Source of the DNA: Gemmobacter caeni
GTDB lineage: Bacteria; Pseudomonadota; Alphaproteobacteria; Rhodobacterales; Rhodobacteraceae
Assembly: GCF_003054195.1 (NCBI RefSeq)
Contig: NZ_QBKP01000008.1
Coordinates: 124,001-188,000, forward strand
Direction of reading: 5' to 3'
DNA length: 64,000 nt
The notes beneath the pieces are model-generated. The model was given only the letters and a program-made list of their open reading frames with translations. It was not told the DNA's origin and searched no databases. A program made the translations under genes and the position numbers. Shown here piece by piece: positions 5,590 through 38,313 of the stretch. Position 1 is the first letter of the stretch; the number at the start of each line of letters is the position of its first letter.

Positions 5590-6417
5590 ATGACGACAGT
5601 TGCCTTGTTCGGGGCGGGCGGAAAAATGGGCATCCGTCTGGGCCGCAATCTGGCCAGGACCGATTTCGAGGTGCGCAGCGTCGAGGTTTCGGACATCGGC
5701 AAAGACCGCCTGCGCTCTGAGATCGGGGCCGAGGCGGTGGCGCCGGAGGTGGCGATCAAAGGCGCCGATGTGGTGATCCTGGCGGTGCCGGATACGGTGA
5801 TCGGCAAGGTGGCGAAGGATCTGGTGCCGCAGCTTGACCCCGGCACCATGGTCGTGGTGCTGGACGCGGCGGCGCCCTTCGCGGGCGATCTGCCGGAACG
5901 CGCCGACATCACCTATTTCGTGACCCACCCCTGCCATCCGGTCATTTTCAACTACGGCAAGACCGATGCTGAACTGCATGACCATTTCGGTGGCATCGCC
6001 GCGCCGCAGGGCGTGGTCAATGCGCTGATGCAGGGGCCGGAAGAACATTATGCGCTGGGCGATTCCATCGCGCGCGCCATCTATGCGCCGGTCAACCGCA
6101 CCCATCGCTGCACGGTCGAACAGATGGCCTATCTGGAGCCGGGCCTGTCGGAAACCGTCTGTGCCTCGCTGCTGGTTGTAATGCGTCAGGCGATGGACGA
6201 GGTGGTCAAGACCGGCGTCTCGCAGGAGTGTGCCCGCGACTTCCTGCTGGGCCATATGAACATCCTCGGCGCGGTGATCTTCGACGAGGTGCAGGGCGTG
6301 TTCTCGGACGCCTGCAACAAGGCCATCGAATTCGGTATTCCGGTGCTGATGAAAGATGACTGGAAGCGCGTGTTCGAGCCGGAGGAAATTCTGGCCAGCG
6401 TGAAGCGCATCACCTGA
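5590..6417 (+). CDS. apnO: D-apionate oxidoisomerase
   Basis: A 275-residue NAD-dependent enzyme with an N-terminal Rossmann fold (VALFGAGGKMGIRLGRNL) and a C-terminal helical domain of the phosphogluconate-dehydrogenase type (DDWKRVFEPEEIL near the end). The family includes ApnO, which oxidises D-apionate and moves a hydroxymethyl group to give 3-oxo-isoapionate, the substrate of OiaK. The start at 5590 follows GGGAGGAACATC. It lies 68 bp before the TRAP transporter genes in the same direction and is probably cotranscribed with them. The specific function rests on the length, the fold and the kinase/RuBisCO-like neighbours. Confidence 0.85.
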   Translation: MTTVALFGAGGKMGIRLGRNLARTDFEVRSVEVSDIGKDRLRSEIGAEAVAPEVAIKGADVVILAVPDTVIGKVAKDLVPQLDPGTMVVVLDAAAPFAGDLPERADITYFVTHPCHPVIFNYGKTDAELHDHFGGIAAPQGVVNALMQGPEEHYALGDSIARAIYAPVNRTHRCTVEQMAYLEPGLSETVCASLLVVMRQAMDEVVKTGVSQECARDFLLGHMNILGAVIFDEVQGVFSDACNKAIEFGIPVLMKDDWKRVFEPEEILASVKRIT

Positions 6418-30897: not shown

Positions 30898-30973
30898 GGG
30901 CCTGTAGCTCAATGGTCAGAGCAGGGCGCTCATAACGCCTTGGTTGGGGGTTCGAGTCCCTCCGGGCCTACCA
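30898..30973 (+). tRNA. tRNA with CAT anticodon (tRNA-Ile2 or tRNA-Met), prophage integration site
   Basis: A 76-nt cloverleaf including an encoded CCA. The acceptor is GGGCCTG with CGGGCCT, the D arm is GCTC/GAGC, the anticodon stem is GGGCG/CGCCT with loop CTCATAA, and the T loop is TTCGAGT. The CAT anticodon fits elongator Met or Ile2 (lysidine-modified). The body resembles alphaproteobacterial Ile2, so I prefer that reading. The integrase gene begins 153 bp downstream in the same direction, the usual layout when a phage uses a tRNA 3' end as its attachment site. Confidence 0.93.
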
Positions 30974-31125
30974 TTCGCCTTTTTCATGCGTCCAGAGCCG
31001 TCCGAGACACCGGCTTAGACGCATGAAAACAAGGCATTTTGATAGATGATCTTTTTCATTTGTCCCTATGCGTCCAGATGCCTGTTGGTATAATCGTTGG
31101 TATCAGACAGCGAGACGATACCAAC
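30974..31125. repeat. Prophage left-end (attL-side) region with repeated arm-type motifs
   Basis: Between the tRNA and int, ATGCGTCCAGA occurs at 30986-30996 and again at 31068-31077 plus one base. An inverted copy GACGCATG at 31018-31025 pairs with CATGCGTC at 30985-30992. CTTTTTCAT also occurs twice (about 30979 and 31051). Short repeated motifs beside an integrase at an attachment site are typical arm-type binding sites. The core att is probably within the tRNA 3' end. The right-hand copy is outside the window. Confidence 0.5.
31084..31125 (+). promoter_or_regulatory. Inverted repeat abutting the integrase start codon
   Basis: GTTGGTATC (31096-31104) and GATACCAAC (31117-31125) form a perfect 9-bp inverted repeat ending exactly at the int ATG. 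A third copy, GTTGGTAT, is at 31084-31091. It may be an operator for int or an mRNA hairpin limiting its translation. Confidence 0.5.
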
Positions 31126-32274
31126 ATGACTTTGACCGACAACGCCTGCAAGAACGCCAAGCCTTCGGATGCGGCCAGAAAGATGTCGGATGGGGGCGGT
31201 CTTTACCTGTTTGTTACCCCGAGCGGTTCGAAATTATGGAGGATGAACTACCGCTTCGAGGGGAAGCAGAAGACCCTATCCTTCGGCGCTTACCCGGCAG
31301 TAGGGCTCAAGGATGCCAGGGCGCACAGGGACAAGGCCAAGAGCGTTCTGGCTTCCGGTCGAGATCCTGCCGCGCAGACCGCAACTGAGGATAGCTTCGA
31401 GGCAGTTGCGCGAGAATGGCATCGCAGCAACGAAACCAAGTGGGTGCCGCAACATTCAGCACGGGTTCTGAGCAGACTGGTGCAGGATGTTTTTCCAGAG
31501 ATCGGCGGGACGCGGGTTTCGGAGATCACTCCGTCCCATGTGCTTGCTGTTCTGAGAAAGGTAGAAGGTCGCGGTGTGCGGGACACGCCTCGCCGGCTGC
31601 GACAGTCGATCAGCTCGGTGTTCCGGTACGCGGTGGCATCGGGTCTGACGCAGCTGGACCCGGCAGCGAGCATTCACGACGCACTGAAAGCGCGGCCGAA
31701 AACAAAACACAGGGCGGCGCTGAAGCCAGAGGAATTGCCGGAATTTTTCGCCAGACTGGCAAAATATGCCGGCAACCCGGTGACTGCCAAGGCGATCTAT
31801 TTCACGATGCTGACCATGACCCGCACCGCGGAAGTTCGCTTCGCCACCTGGGCAGAATTTCAGGGGGACACATGGAGGATTCCGGCCGAGCGGATGAAGA
31901 TGGGGAAAGAGCACCTTGTCCCACTTTCACCTCAGGCGCAGGCAGTTCTGGCCACGCTGGACAGATCGACGGAATGGGTGTTTCCGGGTGTCCGCGGAAG
32001 CATGTCCGAAAACACGATGATCTATGCGCTTTACCGGATGGGATACCACAGCAGGGTCACTGTTCACGGCATGCGGTCTCTGGCCTCGACCATGATGAAC
32101 GAAAGTGGCTTGTGGCGGGCGGATGCGATCGAGCGCCAGCTTGCTCATACCCCGAAGAACGAAGTGCGTGCCGCCTATAATGCTGCGCTATACTGGTCTG
32201 AACGGTGCCGGATGATGAACTGGTGGGGAGACTGGATCGAGCAGCAAAAGATGCTCGGTGAAATGTTGGGGTGA
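31126..32274 (+). CDS. int: Tyrosine integrase of the prophage
   Basis: A 382-residue tyrosine recombinase with an N-terminal arm-DNA-binding domain of the DUF4102 type (DGGGLYLFVTPSGSKLWRM), a SAM-like core-binding domain (about 85-180) and a catalytic domain. Visible catalytic residues are R233 (TMTRTAEVRF), H314 and R317 (VHGMRSLAS), H341 and probable nucleophile Y351. The ATG at 31126 directly follows an inverted repeat. No strong ribosome-binding site is seen. The stop codon lies inside the first structured repeat unit at 32273. It should integrate and, with the AlpA-like protein, perhaps excise the phage at the adjacent tRNA. Confidence 0.92.
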   Translation: MTLTDNACKNAKPSDAARKMSDGGGLYLFVTPSGSKLWRMNYRFEGKQKTLSFGAYPAVGLKDARAHRDKAKSVLASGRDPAAQTATEDSFEAVAREWHRSNETKWVPQHSARVLSRLVQDVFPEIGGTRVSEITPSHVLAVLRKVEGRGVRDTPRRLRQSISSVFRYAVASGLTQLDPAASIHDALKARPKTKHRAALKPEELPEFFARLAKYAGNPVTAKAIYFTMLTMTRTAEVRFATWAEFQGDTWRIPAERMKMGKEHLVPLSPQAQAVLATLDRSTEWVFPGVRGSMSENTMIYALYRMGYHSRVTVHGMRSLASTMMNESGLWRADAIERQLAHTPKNEVRAAYNAALYWSERCRMMNWWGDWIEQQKMLGEMLG

Positions 32275-32449
32275 GCGCGGGCCACATTTCAGGGGTTCCA
32301 AAGGTGCCCGTGGAAGTCAGCATCCCGCTTTCACTTCACCACTCAGGGGCCGCGCTCAGGAGGATGCATCTGCCGCGACTTGCTAAGCCGGTCACGCGGC
32401 GATCCTTGGTGTAAACCGGCGTCCTTTTGATGCACCCGCCAGAAAGCGG
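32273..32449 (-). repeat. Structured unit U3
   Basis: The hairpin CCGC/GCGG is at 32436-32449. The long-range stem pairs 32429-32437 (minus GGGTGCATC) with 32362-32370 (minus GATGCATCC), including one G-U pair on the minus strand. The second element spans 32273-32357 and is closed by GAGCGCG/CGCGCTC. Its end overlaps the int stop codon. Confidence 0.6.
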
Positions 32450-32568
32450 TGCCGCTATTTCCCGGCTGCCAGGTCGGCATGGATCGGCCACGACCATCGT
32501 TGGCGCACTGCTCCCATGCTGAGTGGGCCGTAGCCCTGATGCAACCCTATCGGGCCATCGTGCAAGGT

Positions 32569-32790
32569 GAGCGCGGGCCGGATAGGATTTGAACCTATAT
32601 AAGCTACACATCGGAATTACGCCCCGTAACCAAAATTCGGCACCGGACTCCGCGCTCACGAGGTCACAGATTTACCGGGTTTCCCCGGAAACATGGCAGG
32701 TGGCCACCTTACTCACTGTCTAACAATGCCGAGGTGCGACCCCGATGCCGGATGTGAGAACCATGTCAATCTGTGACCGCGTGAAAGCGG
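32569..32790 (-). repeat. Structured unit U2
   Basis: The hairpin is at 32777-32790 (minus CCGCTTTCACGCGG). The long-range 11-bp stem GGTCACAGATT/AATCTGTGACC joins 32768-32778 with 32662-32672 and encloses a CCGGG-GAAA-CCCGG hairpin (32675-32688). The second element, 32569-32657, is closed by GAGCGCG/CGCGCTC and contains a perfect 5-bp T-arm, ATAGG-TTCAAAT-CCTAT. Confidence 0.6.
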
Positions 32791-32919
32791 TTGCGGGTTG
32801 GGTGTATTGCGGCTCCCGCCTTCCGCTTGTTCCGACACCCTCGGCATGACCCATAACCGGCATCCAGGTCAACATTTCTCCTATCACCTTTCGGCAAGAG
32901 GCCGGTAGAAACACAAGTT

Positions 32920-33107
32920 GAGCGTGGGCCGTTCGCACGGACTTGAACCGCTGTCACCCGCTTTCACGCTGGTAGGCTTTACCCACAGCACTCGTTGCCG
33001 AACCACGCTCAGGAGGATGCTGAAAGGCCCTTTTGGTTTCACCCGCTCGCTCATCCTTGAGGAGTCTTGCTCTACGGGTCACTCATTCAGCATCCGCCAG
33101 AAAGCGG
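32920..33107 (-). repeat. Structured unit U1
   Basis: The hairpin is at 33094-33107. The 10-bp long-range stem GGATGCTGAA/TTCAGCATCC joins 33086-33095 with 33015-33024. The second element, 32920-33010, is closed by GAGCGTG/CACGCTC, a compensatory change relative to U2 and U3. It has an inner stem GTTCG/CGAAC, a TTCAAGT loop, and CCA after the inner stem, so it resembles a distorted tRNA. Confidence 0.6.
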
Positions 33108-33203
33108 TTGCGCGGTTATCGAGACGCGCCCCTCGGGGTCGGTTGTGAATTTGAATACCACCTCGCATCCACAAATCAATATTGGCGTGATTCGTGTTGC
33201 TTT

Positions 33204-33218
33204 GCAAGTTAAAAGTGA
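33204..33218 (+). promoter_or_regulatory. Phage palindromic operator S1 upstream of the AlpA-like gene
   Basis: GCAAGTTAAAAGTGA has a good right half-site (AAAAGTGA) and a weaker left half of the palindrome seen at four other gaps. A -10-like GATAAT (33217-33222) overlaps its end, the same arrangement as at S2. Confidence 0.4.
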
Positions 33219-33259
33219 TAATCTGAATCCATCAAGTCACCGCCATGACGAGGGGAAGC

Positions 33260-33430
33260 ATGTTTTTGAGAATCGGAGAAGTGATCAAGCGTACCGGGCT
33301 CGCCCGCAGCACGATCTATCAGATGGCAAGGGAGGGGAGGTTCCCGCCGCCGCGCCGCATTTCCTATCGCGTATCGGCGTGGGTCGAAGGCGAGATCGTC
33401 GCCTGGCAAGAAAAGTTCGTGAAGGGTTGA
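33260..33430 (+). CDS. AlpA-like helix-turn-helix protein (possible excisionase/activator)
   Basis: A 56-residue protein with the AlpA/MerR-like winged-helix pattern: IGEVIKRTGLARSTIYQMAR is the helix-turn-helix, then RFPPPRRISYRVSAWVEGEI and a final Trp segment. Such proteins act as excisionases or small activators in phages and satellites. I chose the ATG at 33260 with GAGGGG before it; an ATG at 33245 is also in frame. Its place before the terminase genes and next to the structured region makes a regulator of integration or late genes plausible. Confidence 0.7.
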   Translation: MFLRIGEVIKRTGLARSTIYQMAREGRFPPPRRISYRVSAWVEGEIVAWQEKFVKG

Positions 33431-33433
33431 TCC

Positions 33434-34069
33434 GTGACTGATGATCTGGACGCACTTCTCGGGCCTCCGTCGCCTCGACCTGAGCCTGAGCCCCATCCAT
33501 CCATGTTCCGCAAGCCGGTTGGGGTGACCTTTCTCGCTCAGGTCGTCGGCAAACAGCCCTACCAGATCGAGAAGCGCCTGGCGAAGTGTCCGGTCAAGGA
33601 ATGGGATCGCCGTGGTGCGAAGTCGCACCCGAAGTATGATTTCGTCGAGGCGATGGGCTACCTGATCAATCCCAAAATCGACATCGAGGATTGGCTGTCA
33701 TCGAAAAATGCAGCCAGCCTCCCGCCGTACATCAACAAGATGTTCTGGGATTCTGCCATGCAGCGCATCCGTGTGATGAACGCTGCCGGTGACCTTTGGC
33801 ATACCGAAGATGTTCTCGTCGTGATGGGAAGAGTCGCCCTTCTTATCAAGGAAGAAGCGAAAAACTGGATCGAGGATCTTCCTGAAAAGGATCAGTTGAG
33901 CAACGAGCAGTATGAATTTCTGCTGGGGGCTGTCGACCGGCTGATTTCTTCAGTTCGCAACCGTCTGATTGACCTTCCCAAGGAGGGTCTGACGCGGGCG
34001 AGCATGTCCGACACCATCATTTCCGAACTCGAAGCAAGCGGCGAGATGCCGTCGCAAGAGGACGAATGA
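33434..34069 (+). CDS. Terminase small subunit-like protein (Nu1-type position)
   Basis: A 211-residue protein resembling the DUF1441/Nu1-type small terminase group. The segment VTFLAQVVGKQPYQIEKRLA looks like a DNA-binding winged helix, followed by an alpha-helical region (about 110-190). It starts with GTG at 33434 after AAGGG and ends with an ATGA overlap onto the large subunit gene, as expected for a packaging pair. Small terminases recognise the packaging site on phage DNA. Confidence 0.65.
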   Translation: MTDDLDALLGPPSPRPEPEPHPSMFRKPVGVTFLAQVVGKQPYQIEKRLAKCPVKEWDRRGAKSHPKYDFVEAMGYLINPKIDIEDWLSSKNAASLPPYINKMFWDSAMQRIRVMNAAGDLWHTEDVLVVMGRVALLIKEEAKNWIEDLPEKDQLSNEQYEFLLGAVDRLISSVRNRLIDLPKEGLTRASMSDTIISELEASGEMPSQEDE

Positions 34070-36255
34070 CAGCCAGGACCATTAAGGCCCCATCCGTAAG
34101 AGACCTGGCTGAGGCGGCCAGGTATCATGGGATCGAAGAGATTGCGGCAAAAGCATTCGACATGATGCAGCCGGCAGAGCGGCTGACAGTGGCGCAATGC
34201 GCACAAGAATACATGTTTTTCGGATCAGGGTCCGGGCACAAGACCCGATGGTCGCCGCTCAAGACCCCATATCTGATCGAACCGATGAACATGCTGACGA
34301 GCCTGGACCATCAGGGCATGATTTTCGTTGGCCCGGCCCGAACCGGCAAAACGGCAATGTCTCTGGGGTGGATGGCGCATACGGTCATCACCGATCCGGC
34401 AGACATGCTTTACGTTCAGATGGACCGGGAAAATGCTCGCAAGTTTTCCAACGGGGATCTGCAACGTTTTCTCGTGGCGTCGGATGAGGTGCGCAAGCGC
34501 CAGCTCACCAAGCGTCAGATGGATAACACCTTCGACAAGACGTTTGAGTCGGGGATGCGGTTTCTGCTGACCTACCCGACTGCCTCCAACCTGTCGAACA
34601 TCACCGTCGGCCGGGTCTGGCTGATCGACTATGAACGCATGGACGATGATGTTGGCGGCGAAGGCACGCCCTACGACATGGCGGCGAAGCGGACGCAAAC
34701 CTTCGGGCGCCGCGGGATGACCGTAGCCGAGGCGTCCCCGAACCCGAACAAGGAAATCACCGATCCGAAGTGGGCACCCCAATCCCCACATCAGGCCCCG
34801 CCGATCAAAGGCATTTTCGAACTCTACAATCGTGGTGATCGCCGCAGGTTCTATTGGTTTTGCCCGAAGTGCGGATCTCCGTTCGAGCCGGATTTCAAAC
34901 ACCTCGTCGGTTACGAGGACGCTCGCGACATGCTTGAGGCGCGGGAGAAAACCTACATGCGGTGTCCGGTCAGAGGTTGTCCGATCGAGCCGAAATACAA
35001 AGACGCCATGAACATGAAGGGTGTCTGGGTGCCCGACTGGGCGCGCGTCGATGCAGATGGCGTCATCTCCCCTATTCGCGAAGACGGTTACATCGCTCGA
35101 TCAAACATCGCCTCCTTCTGGTTGAAGGGACCGGCCGCAGGTTACGTCACATGGGGCGAACTTGCTGCAAAATACCTCACCGCGACGAAGGCGCTCGAAG
35201 AGACCGGAGACGACGGGCCGCTGCGCACCACGATCACCGTGGATCAGGGGAGTTATTACATCCCGGCCTCGCGTCTGTCCGAACGATCCCCGGAACAGCT
35301 GAAAGAAAAGGCAGAAGACTGGGGGTCGACCGAGGAAGAACCGACAATCCCACCATGGGTGCGGTTCCTCGTTGCCACCATCGACGTGCAGAAAACCTGC
35401 TTCGTGGTTCAGATCAACGGCTATACCTCATCTGGAGATCTTGTCGTCATCGACGGCTTCAAACTGCGCTTGTCGGATCGACGCAACGCAGACGGAGACA
35501 GGTTGCCGATGGACCCAGCCGCCTATGGTGAGGACTGGGATATTCTGGTGCGCGAGGTGATGCGGAAAACCTACGCGCTGTCCGACGGTAGCGGTCGCCG
35601 CATGGCGATCCGGGCAACAGGATGCGACTCCGGTGGCGCGGAGGGGGTGACAACGCACGCCTATAATTTGTGGCGCCGTCTCAAGCAGACAGAGGACGGG
35701 CTTCATCGTCGCTTCATTCTGGTGAAAGGTGAGCCGAGCAAGACGGCCCCGAGAGCCCGCGCGACGTGGCCGGATTCCTCTCGCAAGGACAAGTATGCCG
35801 TTGCGCGCGGGGATGTGCCGGTCCTTCTGCTCAATTCCAACCTCGTAAAGGATCTGGTCAGCGGGATGTTGGCGCGCACCGTGGGCCAGGAGGATCAAAA
35901 CGAGATAGGTGTCAGTGGCAGGGTTCGTTTCCCGACATGGATGCAGCCGTGGTTCTACAATCAGATGACCACGGAAATTCGCACCGAGAAAGGCTGGGAG
36001 AATCCCCGTCGCCGTCGAAATGAAGCGTGGGACTTGAGCTGTTACGCCATGGGTATCGTGGTGCGGCCTATCGAGAGGGAGGCGCCGTGGGTGCATTTCG
36101 GTATCGAACGCATCGACTGGACCAATCCTCCGACATGGGCGGCCGAGTGGGATGACAACGATTTCATCGTCAACCCGGAAGCCGATGAAAGTACGGTCGC
36201 AGAGAAGCAGAAATCCAAACCGAGCTTCGCTGATCTAGCTTCACGACTGGCCTGA
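34066..36255 (+). CDS. Terminase large subunit (lambda GpA family)
   Basis: A 729-residue packaging motor. The N-terminal ATPase has Walker A GPARTGKT (89-96) and a Walker B-like segment VWLIDYERMDDD. A zinc-ribbon-like insertion has CPKCGSPFEP and CPVRGC. The C-terminal part carries the nuclease domain (VATIDVQ and ATGCDSGGAEG). GpA-type enzymes cut at cos sites and pump DNA into the prohead. Length and motifs match the family. Confidence 0.93.
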   Translation: MTARTIKAPSVRDLAEAARYHGIEEIAAKAFDMMQPAERLTVAQCAQEYMFFGSGSGHKTRWSPLKTPYLIEPMNMLTSLDHQGMIFVGPARTGKTAMSLGWMAHTVITDPADMLYVQMDRENARKFSNGDLQRFLVASDEVRKRQLTKRQMDNTFDKTFESGMRFLLTYPTASNLSNITVGRVWLIDYERMDDDVGGEGTPYDMAAKRTQTFGRRGMTVAEASPNPNKEITDPKWAPQSPHQAPPIKGIFELYNRGDRRRFYWFCPKCGSPFEPDFKHLVGYEDARDMLEAREKTYMRCPVRGCPIEPKYKDAMNMKGVWVPDWARVDADGVISPIREDGYIARSNIASFWLKGPAAGYVTWGELAAKYLTATKALEETGDDGPLRTTITVDQGSYYIPASRLSERSPEQLKEKAEDWGSTEEEPTIPPWVRFLVATIDVQKTCFVVQINGYTSSGDLVVIDGFKLRLSDRRNADGDRLPMDPAAYGEDWDILVREVMRKTYALSDGSGRRMAIRATGCDSGGAEGVTTHAYNLWRRLKQTEDGLHRRFILVKGEPSKTAPRARATWPDSSRKDKYAVARGDVPVLLLNSNLVKDLVSGMLARTVGQEDQNEIGVSGRVRFPTWMQPWFYNQMTTEIRTEKGWENPRRRRNEAWDLSCYAMGIVVRPIEREAPWVHFGIERIDWTNPPTWAAEWDDNDFIVNPEADESTVAEKQKSKPSFADLASRLA

Positions 36256-36609: not shown

Positions 36610-38313
36610 ATGAGCATTCAGGAAGAACTCAACGCATTGCTCGGCCCCGCCTCTCATCCTCCGGGCGAGGGCTATGCGGTCCACGCCCCGGCAACCGTGG
36701 CGGCGGTGGCCGGGGTGTCGGGCGGCGGTATTGCTCACGATGGTGCGAAAGCATTCAGTGAACTGGCGCTCTGGTCCCCGCCTCTGCGTTCGGTCAATGC
36801 TGACGTTCTGCCCGAGAAGGGCGTGCTCGATGCCAAGACCCGCGATCTGTTCCGCAACGATGCTTTTCTGTCCGGTGCAATGGTCACCCACAAGGACAGC
36901 ATCGTTGGTGCGCGATTCATGCTGAATGCTCGCCCCGCGACGAAGATCCTCTGGGGTAAAGAGGATGACACCTGGGAAGAAGAGTTTCAGGAGGAAATCG
37001 AAACCCGCTTCGATCTGTGGGCTGAATCCCCCCATGGCTGGCCCGACGTGGGTAAGCGCAACACGCTCACTGCAACCGTGCGCCTCGGCGTCGGTGTTGA
37101 TCTTGCCGGTGGCGAAGTTCTCGGTCTCGCGCGCTGGATGCCCAACGACGGCCGGCCCTATCGCACTGCATTTCAGATGATTGACCCGGATCGTCTTTCC
37201 GATCCGCTGACGCAGGCGTTCGTGTTTCCCAATCCGCGCCTGCGTCGCGGGATCGAGGTCGATGATTTCGGCGCACCCGTCGCGGCGTGGATCCGCAATT
37301 CGCATCCGTCTGATGGCCCGTTTCACGACTATTCGGACATGAAGCGGAACGACTGGACGCGGGTTCCGTGGAACCGCCCATGGGGGCGCCAGAACATTCT
37401 GCACATCTTCGAGCAGATGCGCCCCGAGCAGGCCCGTGGCATTTCCATCGCTTCTTCATCTCTCAACGAGATGAAGATGACCAAGCATTTCCGCAAAGCG
37501 CAGCTTCAGCGTGCGACCTTGGCGGCGTCCTATGCAATGGCACTGGAAGCTGAATTGCCTCAAGACACCACGCAGGCCCTTGGTGTCGGGTATGCCGCAG
37601 ACGGCAACGCCACGACCCAGTGGATGCTCGACTATCTCGCTGCGGTGCAAGAGTATTCCGGTGGTGCGAAAAACCTGCACGTCGACGGTGTGCAGATCCC
37701 GATGCTGCCGCCAGGTTCCAAGCTGTCGGTTCAGAACACCGGGGCGACGGGGCCGAACGACGCCGAGTATGAAATCAGCCTGCTGCGGTATTCGGCTGCC
37801 GCGCTCGGTCTGCCGCTGGAAGAGTTCATCCACGATTTCAGACAGACAAACTATTCCTCGGTTCGCGCGGCGTTGGGGCGGATGTGGGTCTCGATGCAAG
37901 TGCGCAAGCGCATGGTTGCGGAGCGCATTGCCAACTTCATTTACCGCCTGTGGCTGGAAGAGGCGATCAATCGCAACGAGATCGAGAGCCTGAAGCGTCG
38001 CAACGTTCCTTCTTTCTACGAAGGTCTGAACGCCGAAGCCTATTCGGCTTGCGAATGGATCGGGTCCGGTCGGGGCACGATTGACCCGCTCAAGGAAACG
38101 CAGGCCGACATCCTGGCACTCAAAGCCGGAATTGAGACGAAGGAAGCGATCATCGCTCGCAGAAGCGGTGCCGATTACCGCCGTGTCGCGCGCCAGATCG
38201 CGCGTGAACGCAAGCTGGATGCCTACTTCGAAAATCCGAGCGTCTACGACGCCGACAGCAAGAACGTGCAAAACTCGCTGACGGCGAGTCCGCGTGATGG
38301 GGCCGCCGCATGA
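36610..38313 (+). CDS. Portal protein (lambda gpB family)
   Basis: A 567-residue portal with lambda-type features such as GNATTQWMLDYL in the middle and ALGLPLEEFIHDFRQTNYSS followed by RAALGRMW. It forms the twelve-subunit vertex through which DNA enters and leaves the head. It starts 3 bp after the W-like gene and overlaps the protease gene by four bases (ATGA). The C-terminal segment (RQIARERKLDAYFENPSV) matches the family tail. Confidence 0.92.
   Translation: MSIQEELNALLGPASHPPGEGYAVHAPATVAAVAGVSGGGIAHDGAKAFSELALWSPPLRSVNADVLPEKGVLDAKTRDLFRNDAFLSGAMVTHKDSIVGARFMLNARPATKILWGKEDDTWEEEFQEEIETRFDLWAESPHGWPDVGKRNTLTATVRLGVGVDLAGGEVLGLARWMPNDGRPYRTAFQMIDPDRLSDPLTQAFVFPNPRLRRGIEVDDFGAPVAAWIRNSHPSDGPFHDYSDMKRNDWTRVPWNRPWGRQNILHIFEQMRPEQARGISIASSSLNEMKMTKHFRKAQLQRATLAASYAMALEAELPQDTTQALGVGYAADGNATTQWMLDYLAAVQEYSGGAKNLHVDGVQIPMLPPGSKLSVQNTGATGPNDAEYEISLLRYSAAALGLPLEEFIHDFRQTNYSSVRAALGRMWVSMQVRKRMVAERIANFIYRLWLEEAINRNEIESLKRRNVPSFYEGLNAEAYSACEWIGSGRGTIDPLKETQADILALKAGIETKEAIIARRSGADYRRVARQIARERKLDAYFENPSVYDADSKNVQNSLTASPRDGAAA

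Follow-up and report, generated by a model that had tools for sequence, protein, structure and literature searches.

Several RNA elements of phages offer points of comparison for the locus described here. The pRNA of phage phi29 lies beside the packaging genes and is tied to one type of packaging ATPase. The int-alpA RNA motif, which has a family in the Rfam library, is located between the int and alpA genes, and the promoter early stem-loops of T4-type phages are regulatory cassettes that shuffle between phage genes and are not known to carry a tRNA-like domain. GOLLD and ROOL are reported to occur in phages and prophages, to have no known function and to lie frequently near tRNA islands, with tRNAs sometimes included in the GOLLD linkers (PMC12286853). 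The putRNA of phage HK022 is described as a leader RNA of a phage operon with two stem-loops, which acts with the host RNA polymerase alone (PMC9378689).

We analysed a window of 64,000 nt of Gemmobacter caeni DNA (the whole stretch under study), in which the minus strand of positions 32272-33107 carries three copies of one unit, recognized by direct reading and by our covariance model R1. The window shares its gene order with the int-alpA motif: a tyrosine integrase, the array, an excisionase-like regulator, and then the terminase genes, to which the array is antisense (Table 1). int-alpA itself was not among the Rfam matches of the stretch, either at gathering score or in permissive searches. 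As with the phi29 pRNA, the unit is found beside packaging genes, but it occurs with several terminase families. It can be likened to the T4-type stem-loops by description only, and some of its members have a tRNA-like domain. GOLLD and ROOL, likewise of phages and prophages and often near tRNA islands, are single RNAs of more than 600-800 nt with Rfam models of their own, whereas the present unit measures 84-223 nt. Neither model matched the window at gathering score, nor positions 32200-33300 at E up to 10. The preliminary description, which had likened the array to these RNAs while seeing no direct homology, was right in taking it for a conserved structured phage RNA; its single ornate RNA of ~840 nt gives way to a shorter unit (~85-225 nt) present in one to three copies. 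The likeness to putRNA would be that of a phage operon leader, but putRNA is about 70 nt long and belongs to early operons, while the present unit has 85-225 nt, mostly precedes packaging genes and, unlike putRNA, has two mutually exclusive helices and, in some members, a tRNA-like domain.

Table 1 Features of the array, its surroundings and selected relatives
Feature	Position	Strand	Basis
Unit U1, first of the array in RNA direction	33107-32919	minus	model R1, 64.3 bits; in the model's building set
Unit U2	32790-32568	minus	model R1, 72.6 bits; in the model's building set
Unit U3	32449-32272	minus	model R1, 70.5 bits; in the model's building set
U1 5' tail CCGCUUUCUGGCGG	33094..33107	minus	direct reading
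U1 tail and stem P2, GGATGCTGAA paired with TTCAGCATCC	33012..33107	minus	P2 covaries across the family
U1 strand S UGAGCGUGG	33003..33011	minus	direct reading
U1 domain P1, tRNA-like interior	32919..33011	minus	arms by direct reading; relaxed ARAGORN match in register
U2 tail and stem P2, GGTCACAGATT paired with AATCTGTGACC	32659..32790	minus	direct reading
U2 domain P1, tRNA-like interior	32568..32658	minus	tRNA model, 27.6 bits at 32574-32649 (gathering score 29); relaxed ARAGORN match
U3 tail and stem P2	32359..32449	minus	direct reading
U3 domain P1, without tRNA match	32272..32358	minus	direct reading; relaxed ARAGORN
P0, inverted repeat around GATAAC directly upstream of U1	33110..33129	minus	direct reading and repeat scoring
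Phage tyrosine integrase	31039..32274	plus	Pfam
Small excisionase/AlpA-like regulator	33260..33430	plus	phrog_2790 and phrog_66
Terminase small subunit	33434..34069	plus	phrog_141
Terminase large subunit, GpA type	34066..36255	plus	Pfam
tRNA-Met	30898-30973		ARAGORN
tRNA-like units in register	U1, U2, L072 second, L136, L165, L167, L195	sense	relaxed ARAGORN
P1 and P2 halves, apparently exchanged	L160 10990-11333; L174 10544-10777; L072 6482-6655; L178 12241-12422		sequence reading

From 5' to 3', each unit consists of a tail (CCGCUUUCNNGCGG), a stem P2 whose sequence differs among U1, U2 and U3, CCUC followed by one base, a strand S (UGAGCGCGG; UGAGCGUGG in U1), an interior, and the 3' arm that closes P1 (CCGCGCUCA; CCACGCUCA in U1). 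Direct reading recovered the sequences named in the preliminary description for its three compound units at 32273-33107, whose limits grow by one base once an additional closing U-A pair is counted, and its three long-range stems of different sequence pair as claimed, that of U3 with a G.U on the minus strand. U3 overlaps the 3' end of the integrase gene in antisense. A coding region was rejected, as a 107-aa frame (32659-32336) has no PHROG match and unit lengths vary freely. The last 23 nt of the tRNA-Met (30951-30973) recur exactly at 221113-221135 of contig C8; the two copies are probably attL and attR, and the integrated region may therefore span ~66 kb, as against the 44.6-kb IMG/VR record. 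A tRNA-Val called by ARAGORN inside the portal gene (36700-36788) has no support from the Rfam tRNA model and is probably false. A second region of the same genome, on contig C20, encodes a related integrase (40%) and small terminase subunit (36%), and has no match to R1.

Searching the stretch against Rfam 15 yielded no family at gathering score, and permissive searches of the stretch and of nine relative loci gave only tRNA and sub-threshold matches. At or beside the unit of one relative (L033, 6252-6394, minus strand), SorX, SorY and STnc100 scored 25.5, 25.3 and 23.3 bits, compared with gathering scores of 46.6, 111 and 47; we take these as chance matches or as a putative terminator there. 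Our literature searches found no description of this RNA, and in a word search of a comparative paper on Alphaproteobacteria phages, including the three Sulfitobacter phages, non-coding, noncoding and intergenic did not occur. The RNA class appears to us to be new, while its working principle may prove familiar.

The whole stretch folds modestly better than its shuffles (z -2.5 on the minus and -3.8 on the plus strand, 20 shuffles each). Since these scores are weak, we searched for relatives, and the proof is comparative. BLAST with the whole stretch returned no match among phages and, against 147 relatives, only itself and short matches (32 genomes with a match, its own included). A pattern composed of the conserved parts recovered three independent contigs besides the prophage's own IMG/VR record. 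Wider patterns gave further relatives, one of these patterns at least 80 stretches, and a scan of the genome collection gave 20 stretches, of which a single one, from Leisingera (L145), was kept; the others were not flagged by our candidate script or were dropped as false. The script proposed 46 candidates, of which we kept 35 and dropped 11 (L086 second, L106, L121 second, L141, L142, L148, L149, L150, L153, L155 and L156). Alignment A1 comprises 32 of the kept units; leaving out L174:10598 (a fused unit), L176 and L177 (deviating P1 3' arm) flatters P1. All three are included in A2, whose 50 distinct rows were fitted to the model and hence lean to it.

Model R1, built from A1, gave 52 matches at E up to 0.001 in 42 sources, with at least one in each; most are IMG/VR contigs, joined by Octadecabacter DB virus 2, Sulfitobacter phage pCB2047-A and the Leisingera genome. 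These sources were chosen for holding a unit and include all 32 rows of A1, and the 52 matches (conserved unit length 84-223 nt) describe the family rather than test it. Outside the building set, R1 matched pCB2047-A (45.2 bits, E 3.2e-10), DB virus 2 (23.7 bits, E 1.4e-4), a second unit in L172 (30.8 bits), and L191-L197 and L199 (L198 repeats L191). Those that came from the tail-free pattern described below, which fixed part of P2, offer no independent evidence on P2. Two units share one locus in L072 (1 kb apart), L160, L172, L175, L191, L194 and L197, probably also in L136 (second match at E 0.008) and L174 (fused), and L033 may, by eye, hold a second one. L173 matched a pattern and failed R1; L200 and L201 were dropped after their sequences were read, and L162 and L163, with partial R1 matches at the sequence end, are excluded from further counts. 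In related contigs, closely similar versions of the P1 and P2 halves are combined differently, as if exchanged at a shared core (Table 1). In L160, L075, L177, L166, L168 and others, units, tRNA genes and the genes behind them are repeatedly separated by a short spacer resembling CTATTCTAAG. Under stricter filters, which lose weak matches, R1 found only the window's own genome among 394 cellular genomes of the family, and the own genome plus one doubtful match among 289 of the class; the stretch matched in G472 (E 0.0075) has none of the conserved words and is probably a chance match. The three hosts that are named (Leisingera, Octadecabacter and Sulfitobacter) belong without exception to the Roseobacteraceae.

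Covariation among the stems had been taken in the preliminary description as a sign of conserved structure, and the relatives bear this out. In A1, 96.7% of 598 cells pair; changes on both sides affect 60 cells, where shuffles give 15.1 (sd 3.1), and sliding the partner by 1-3 columns leaves 6-21. The corresponding figures for A2 are 97.6% and 88 cells, against 16.7. The evidence comes from P2 and from the N-N' pair (U-A, G-C, C-G), columns that the search patterns behind A1 left free; the first three contigs were found with N-N' fixed as G-C, yet also satisfy the free pattern. The invariance of the tail, S and the P1 arm counts for little because they were partly fixed by the search patterns, and P1, which shows too little variation to covary strongly, does so in few members only, namely U1, L195 and DB virus 2, where pairing is kept with other letters. 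We conclude, with near certainty, that the three window copies belong to a conserved structured phage RNA family. The observation of a three-unit conserved structure is thereby confirmed, and the earlier interpretation as a whole is partly supported.

Two lines of evidence point to the strand. In the free P2 columns, G.U pairs outnumber A.C mismatches by 17:0 in A1 and 23:0 in A2, and promoter-like sites scoring at least 7.5 lie within 150 nt upstream of 11 of the 52 units in sense and none in antisense (1.6 in shuffles). A TATAAA stands 8 nt before the CCGC in L172, L121 and L118; DB virus 2 has TTGACA-17-GATAGT 76 nt before its unit, and the candidate promoter of U1 is weak (6.6). From these counts, the RNA is very probably read from the minus strand of the window. 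Terminator-like sites within 200 nt downstream do not favour the sense strand (5/52 sense, 10/52 antisense, 2.3 in shuffles), and thus no expression platform is visible.

Strand S can pair either with the 3' arm of P1 or, imperfectly, with the 5' tail (CCGCUUU), in which case the helix extends P2. The two pairings are mutually exclusive, and each survives letter changes in some relatives. A search pattern in which the tail, GCGG and the 3' arm were all left free gave 24 distinct matches, 21 of which have the CCGC tail. The other three (CCGU in L191, UAGC with GCUA in L193, CUGC in L199) all keep the pairing with S, while the shared hairpin of the preliminary description, CCGCTTTCNNGCGG, is by eye broken in two of them. 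As a hairpin this element is poorly supported; it more plausibly forms the 5' strand of a separate helix that competes with P1. Allowing a small window of registers, tail and S form four of four pairs in 22 of the 24. A prefix ending just past S folds with tail-S pairs in all 41 units tested, which were picked from the 52 by requiring six or more P1 pairs together with four tail pairs, a choice that favours this outcome; at full length, the minimum-energy folds contain P1 in 26 and tail-S in 12 of the 41. A tuned energy balance of the two conformers was rejected, as their near-equality (mean difference 0.2 kcal/mol) is no better than with shuffled interiors (-0.7, similar spread). Among 49 units with a readable core, the P1 arms form nine of nine pairs in 30, seven or eight in 14, and five or fewer in 5, the low count in L145 and L194:8722 being at least partly due to where the model places the end. 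We regard a co-transcriptional strand exchange between tail-S and P1 as an evenly balanced proposition.

The preliminary description placed the array in a prophage region; typically, the unit flanks the packaging genes. Within 3 kb of the unit, 30 of 41 relative loci have a large-terminase match, as against 8 of 65 control loci (Fisher P 2e-10), where the controls are chance pattern matches among the listed stretches of the wide pattern search, and 19 of the 21 queries (20 TerL, one TerS) stem from this set's own loci and phages, which favours detection. Annotation adds a terminase to L031 (TerS) and DB virus 2 (TerS, where the circular record begins). Nine of the 41 have none nearby (L067, L098, L118, L167, L170, L178, L193, L195 and L199), with little sequence after the unit in L170 and L178. 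By their best PHROG matches, the TerL proteins belong to several families (38319, 38, 979, 26724, 3717 and 9; the window's TerL is of GpA type), and the small subunits differ too (phrog_141, 51 and 1482); several contigs are close relatives, and these associations are not independent events. In pCB2047-A, the unit sits in a 510-nt stretch without annotated features. Gene gp74 of DB virus 2 (L179; 5990-6514) begins inside the RNA unit (5925-6109), and its annotated start is therefore probably too early. A leader peptide between promoter and unit was rejected by eye, because the frame open in L107 is disrupted by a length change in L166. Integron attC sites and repeats of type III antitoxins were likewise rejected on inspection by eye.

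Set against the arrangement of putRNA, a same-strand leader behind a promoter, the unit lies upstream on the same strand in 27 of the 30 TerL loci (255-2755 nt away) and has strong promoter candidates in 11 of 52 cases, while it is antisense to the terminase in the window and in L033, L121 and L172. In most relatives, we consider it likely that the unit is the leader of the packaging genes. This leader position, the competing helices and the occasional tRNA likeness suggest a co-transcriptional switch before the packaging genes, and the explanation that we tentatively put first, at slightly under even confidence, is a new phage RNA family acting as a host-directed leader switch of the packaging operon by strand exchange. 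During transcription, the tail-S hairpin would form first; the emerging 3' arm of P1 would then displace the tail from S and free the 5' CCGCUUU. Given that the terminases vary and that the named hosts come from one family, the Roseobacteraceae, the switch would act through a host component, either RNA polymerase or an RNA-processing enzyme, and would set the start or timing of the packaging operon by processing or by antitermination in the manner of putRNA (PMC9378689). Weighing against this explanation are the antisense and terminase-free loci, the terminator counts, the weak promoter candidate of U1 and the scarcity of the unit in cellular genomes. That the unit controls the packaging operon is possible, and we hold it with some reserve. 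More tentative still is the broader proposal of a class of nascent-RNA switches that gate the packaging operon of Roseobacteraceae phages via host transcription or RNA processing, in which the freed tail or P1 (a tRNA imitation in some) would act on RNA polymerase or RNase P, and the module would pass between phages with different terminases.

Since the window array is antisense to the terminase genes, it would here be a free-standing RNA or the leader of leftward transcription. The strongest alternative, though a fairly unlikely one, is a trans-acting phage RNA that stands alone under its own promoter, is often a neighbour of tRNA genes, and lies near the terminase because such genes gather there. 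It accords with the tandem copies and with the TATAAA 8 nt before the units of L172, L121 and L118. The antisense arrays (the window, L033, L121 and L172), the terminators that follow the units of L167 and L033 at distances of 48 and 57 nt, and the tRNA genes present in 6 of 33 scanned loci (L032, L075, L133, L145, L167 and L177) fit it better than they fit a leader switch. Such an RNA would, however, have no need for the same-strand upstream placement seen in nearly all TerL loci. P0-like inverted repeats scoring at least 20 precede 13 of the 52 units, compared with 0.7 in shuffles, and are thus not universal.

The interior of P1 resembles tRNA in some units. That of U2 reaches 27.6 bits against the tRNA model, below the gathering score of 29, and relaxed ARAGORN gave 10 matches in the 52 units, of which seven lie in sense and share their end with P1 (Table 1), as compared with 3.6 matches per set in mononucleotide shuffles, where register was not counted. 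With default settings, ARAGORN called no tRNA in the window's units and, among the others, only the P1 of L167 (1029-1125), with a four-base anticodon reading (cgag), beside two tRNA-Leu genes. If P1 imitated a tRNA as a processing signal, RNase P and 3' processing enzymes would cut the transcript and create new mRNA ends; the seven in-register matches, the U2 score and a tRNA gene only 4 nt after the unit of L032 speak for this. Yet 45 of the 52 units lack in-register tRNA likeness, the P1 of L193 has just 14 nt, and the P1 arm would lengthen the acceptor stem beyond tRNA length, making this reading improbable.

Location beside TerS and TerL, and repetition of the unit, would also suit a cos or pac site that the terminase recognizes for DNA packaging; given the G.U excess and the upstream promoters on one strand, and the recurrence of the same element with several different large and small subunits, we consider this highly improbable. 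A packaging-motor RNA comparable to phi29 pRNA, which would likewise adjoin packaging genes and in which the tail of one copy could pair with S of another molecule, is barely plausible, as the same unit occurs in several terminase families and we noticed no conserved loop-loop pair.

If the host-directed leader switch is correct, phages of an important marine bacterial family would share an RNA module that heads their packaging genes and is unannotated even in isolates. It would provide a concrete case of two competing helices seemingly kept by evolution, and a cultured phage and its host would be available for testing how the late operon starts.
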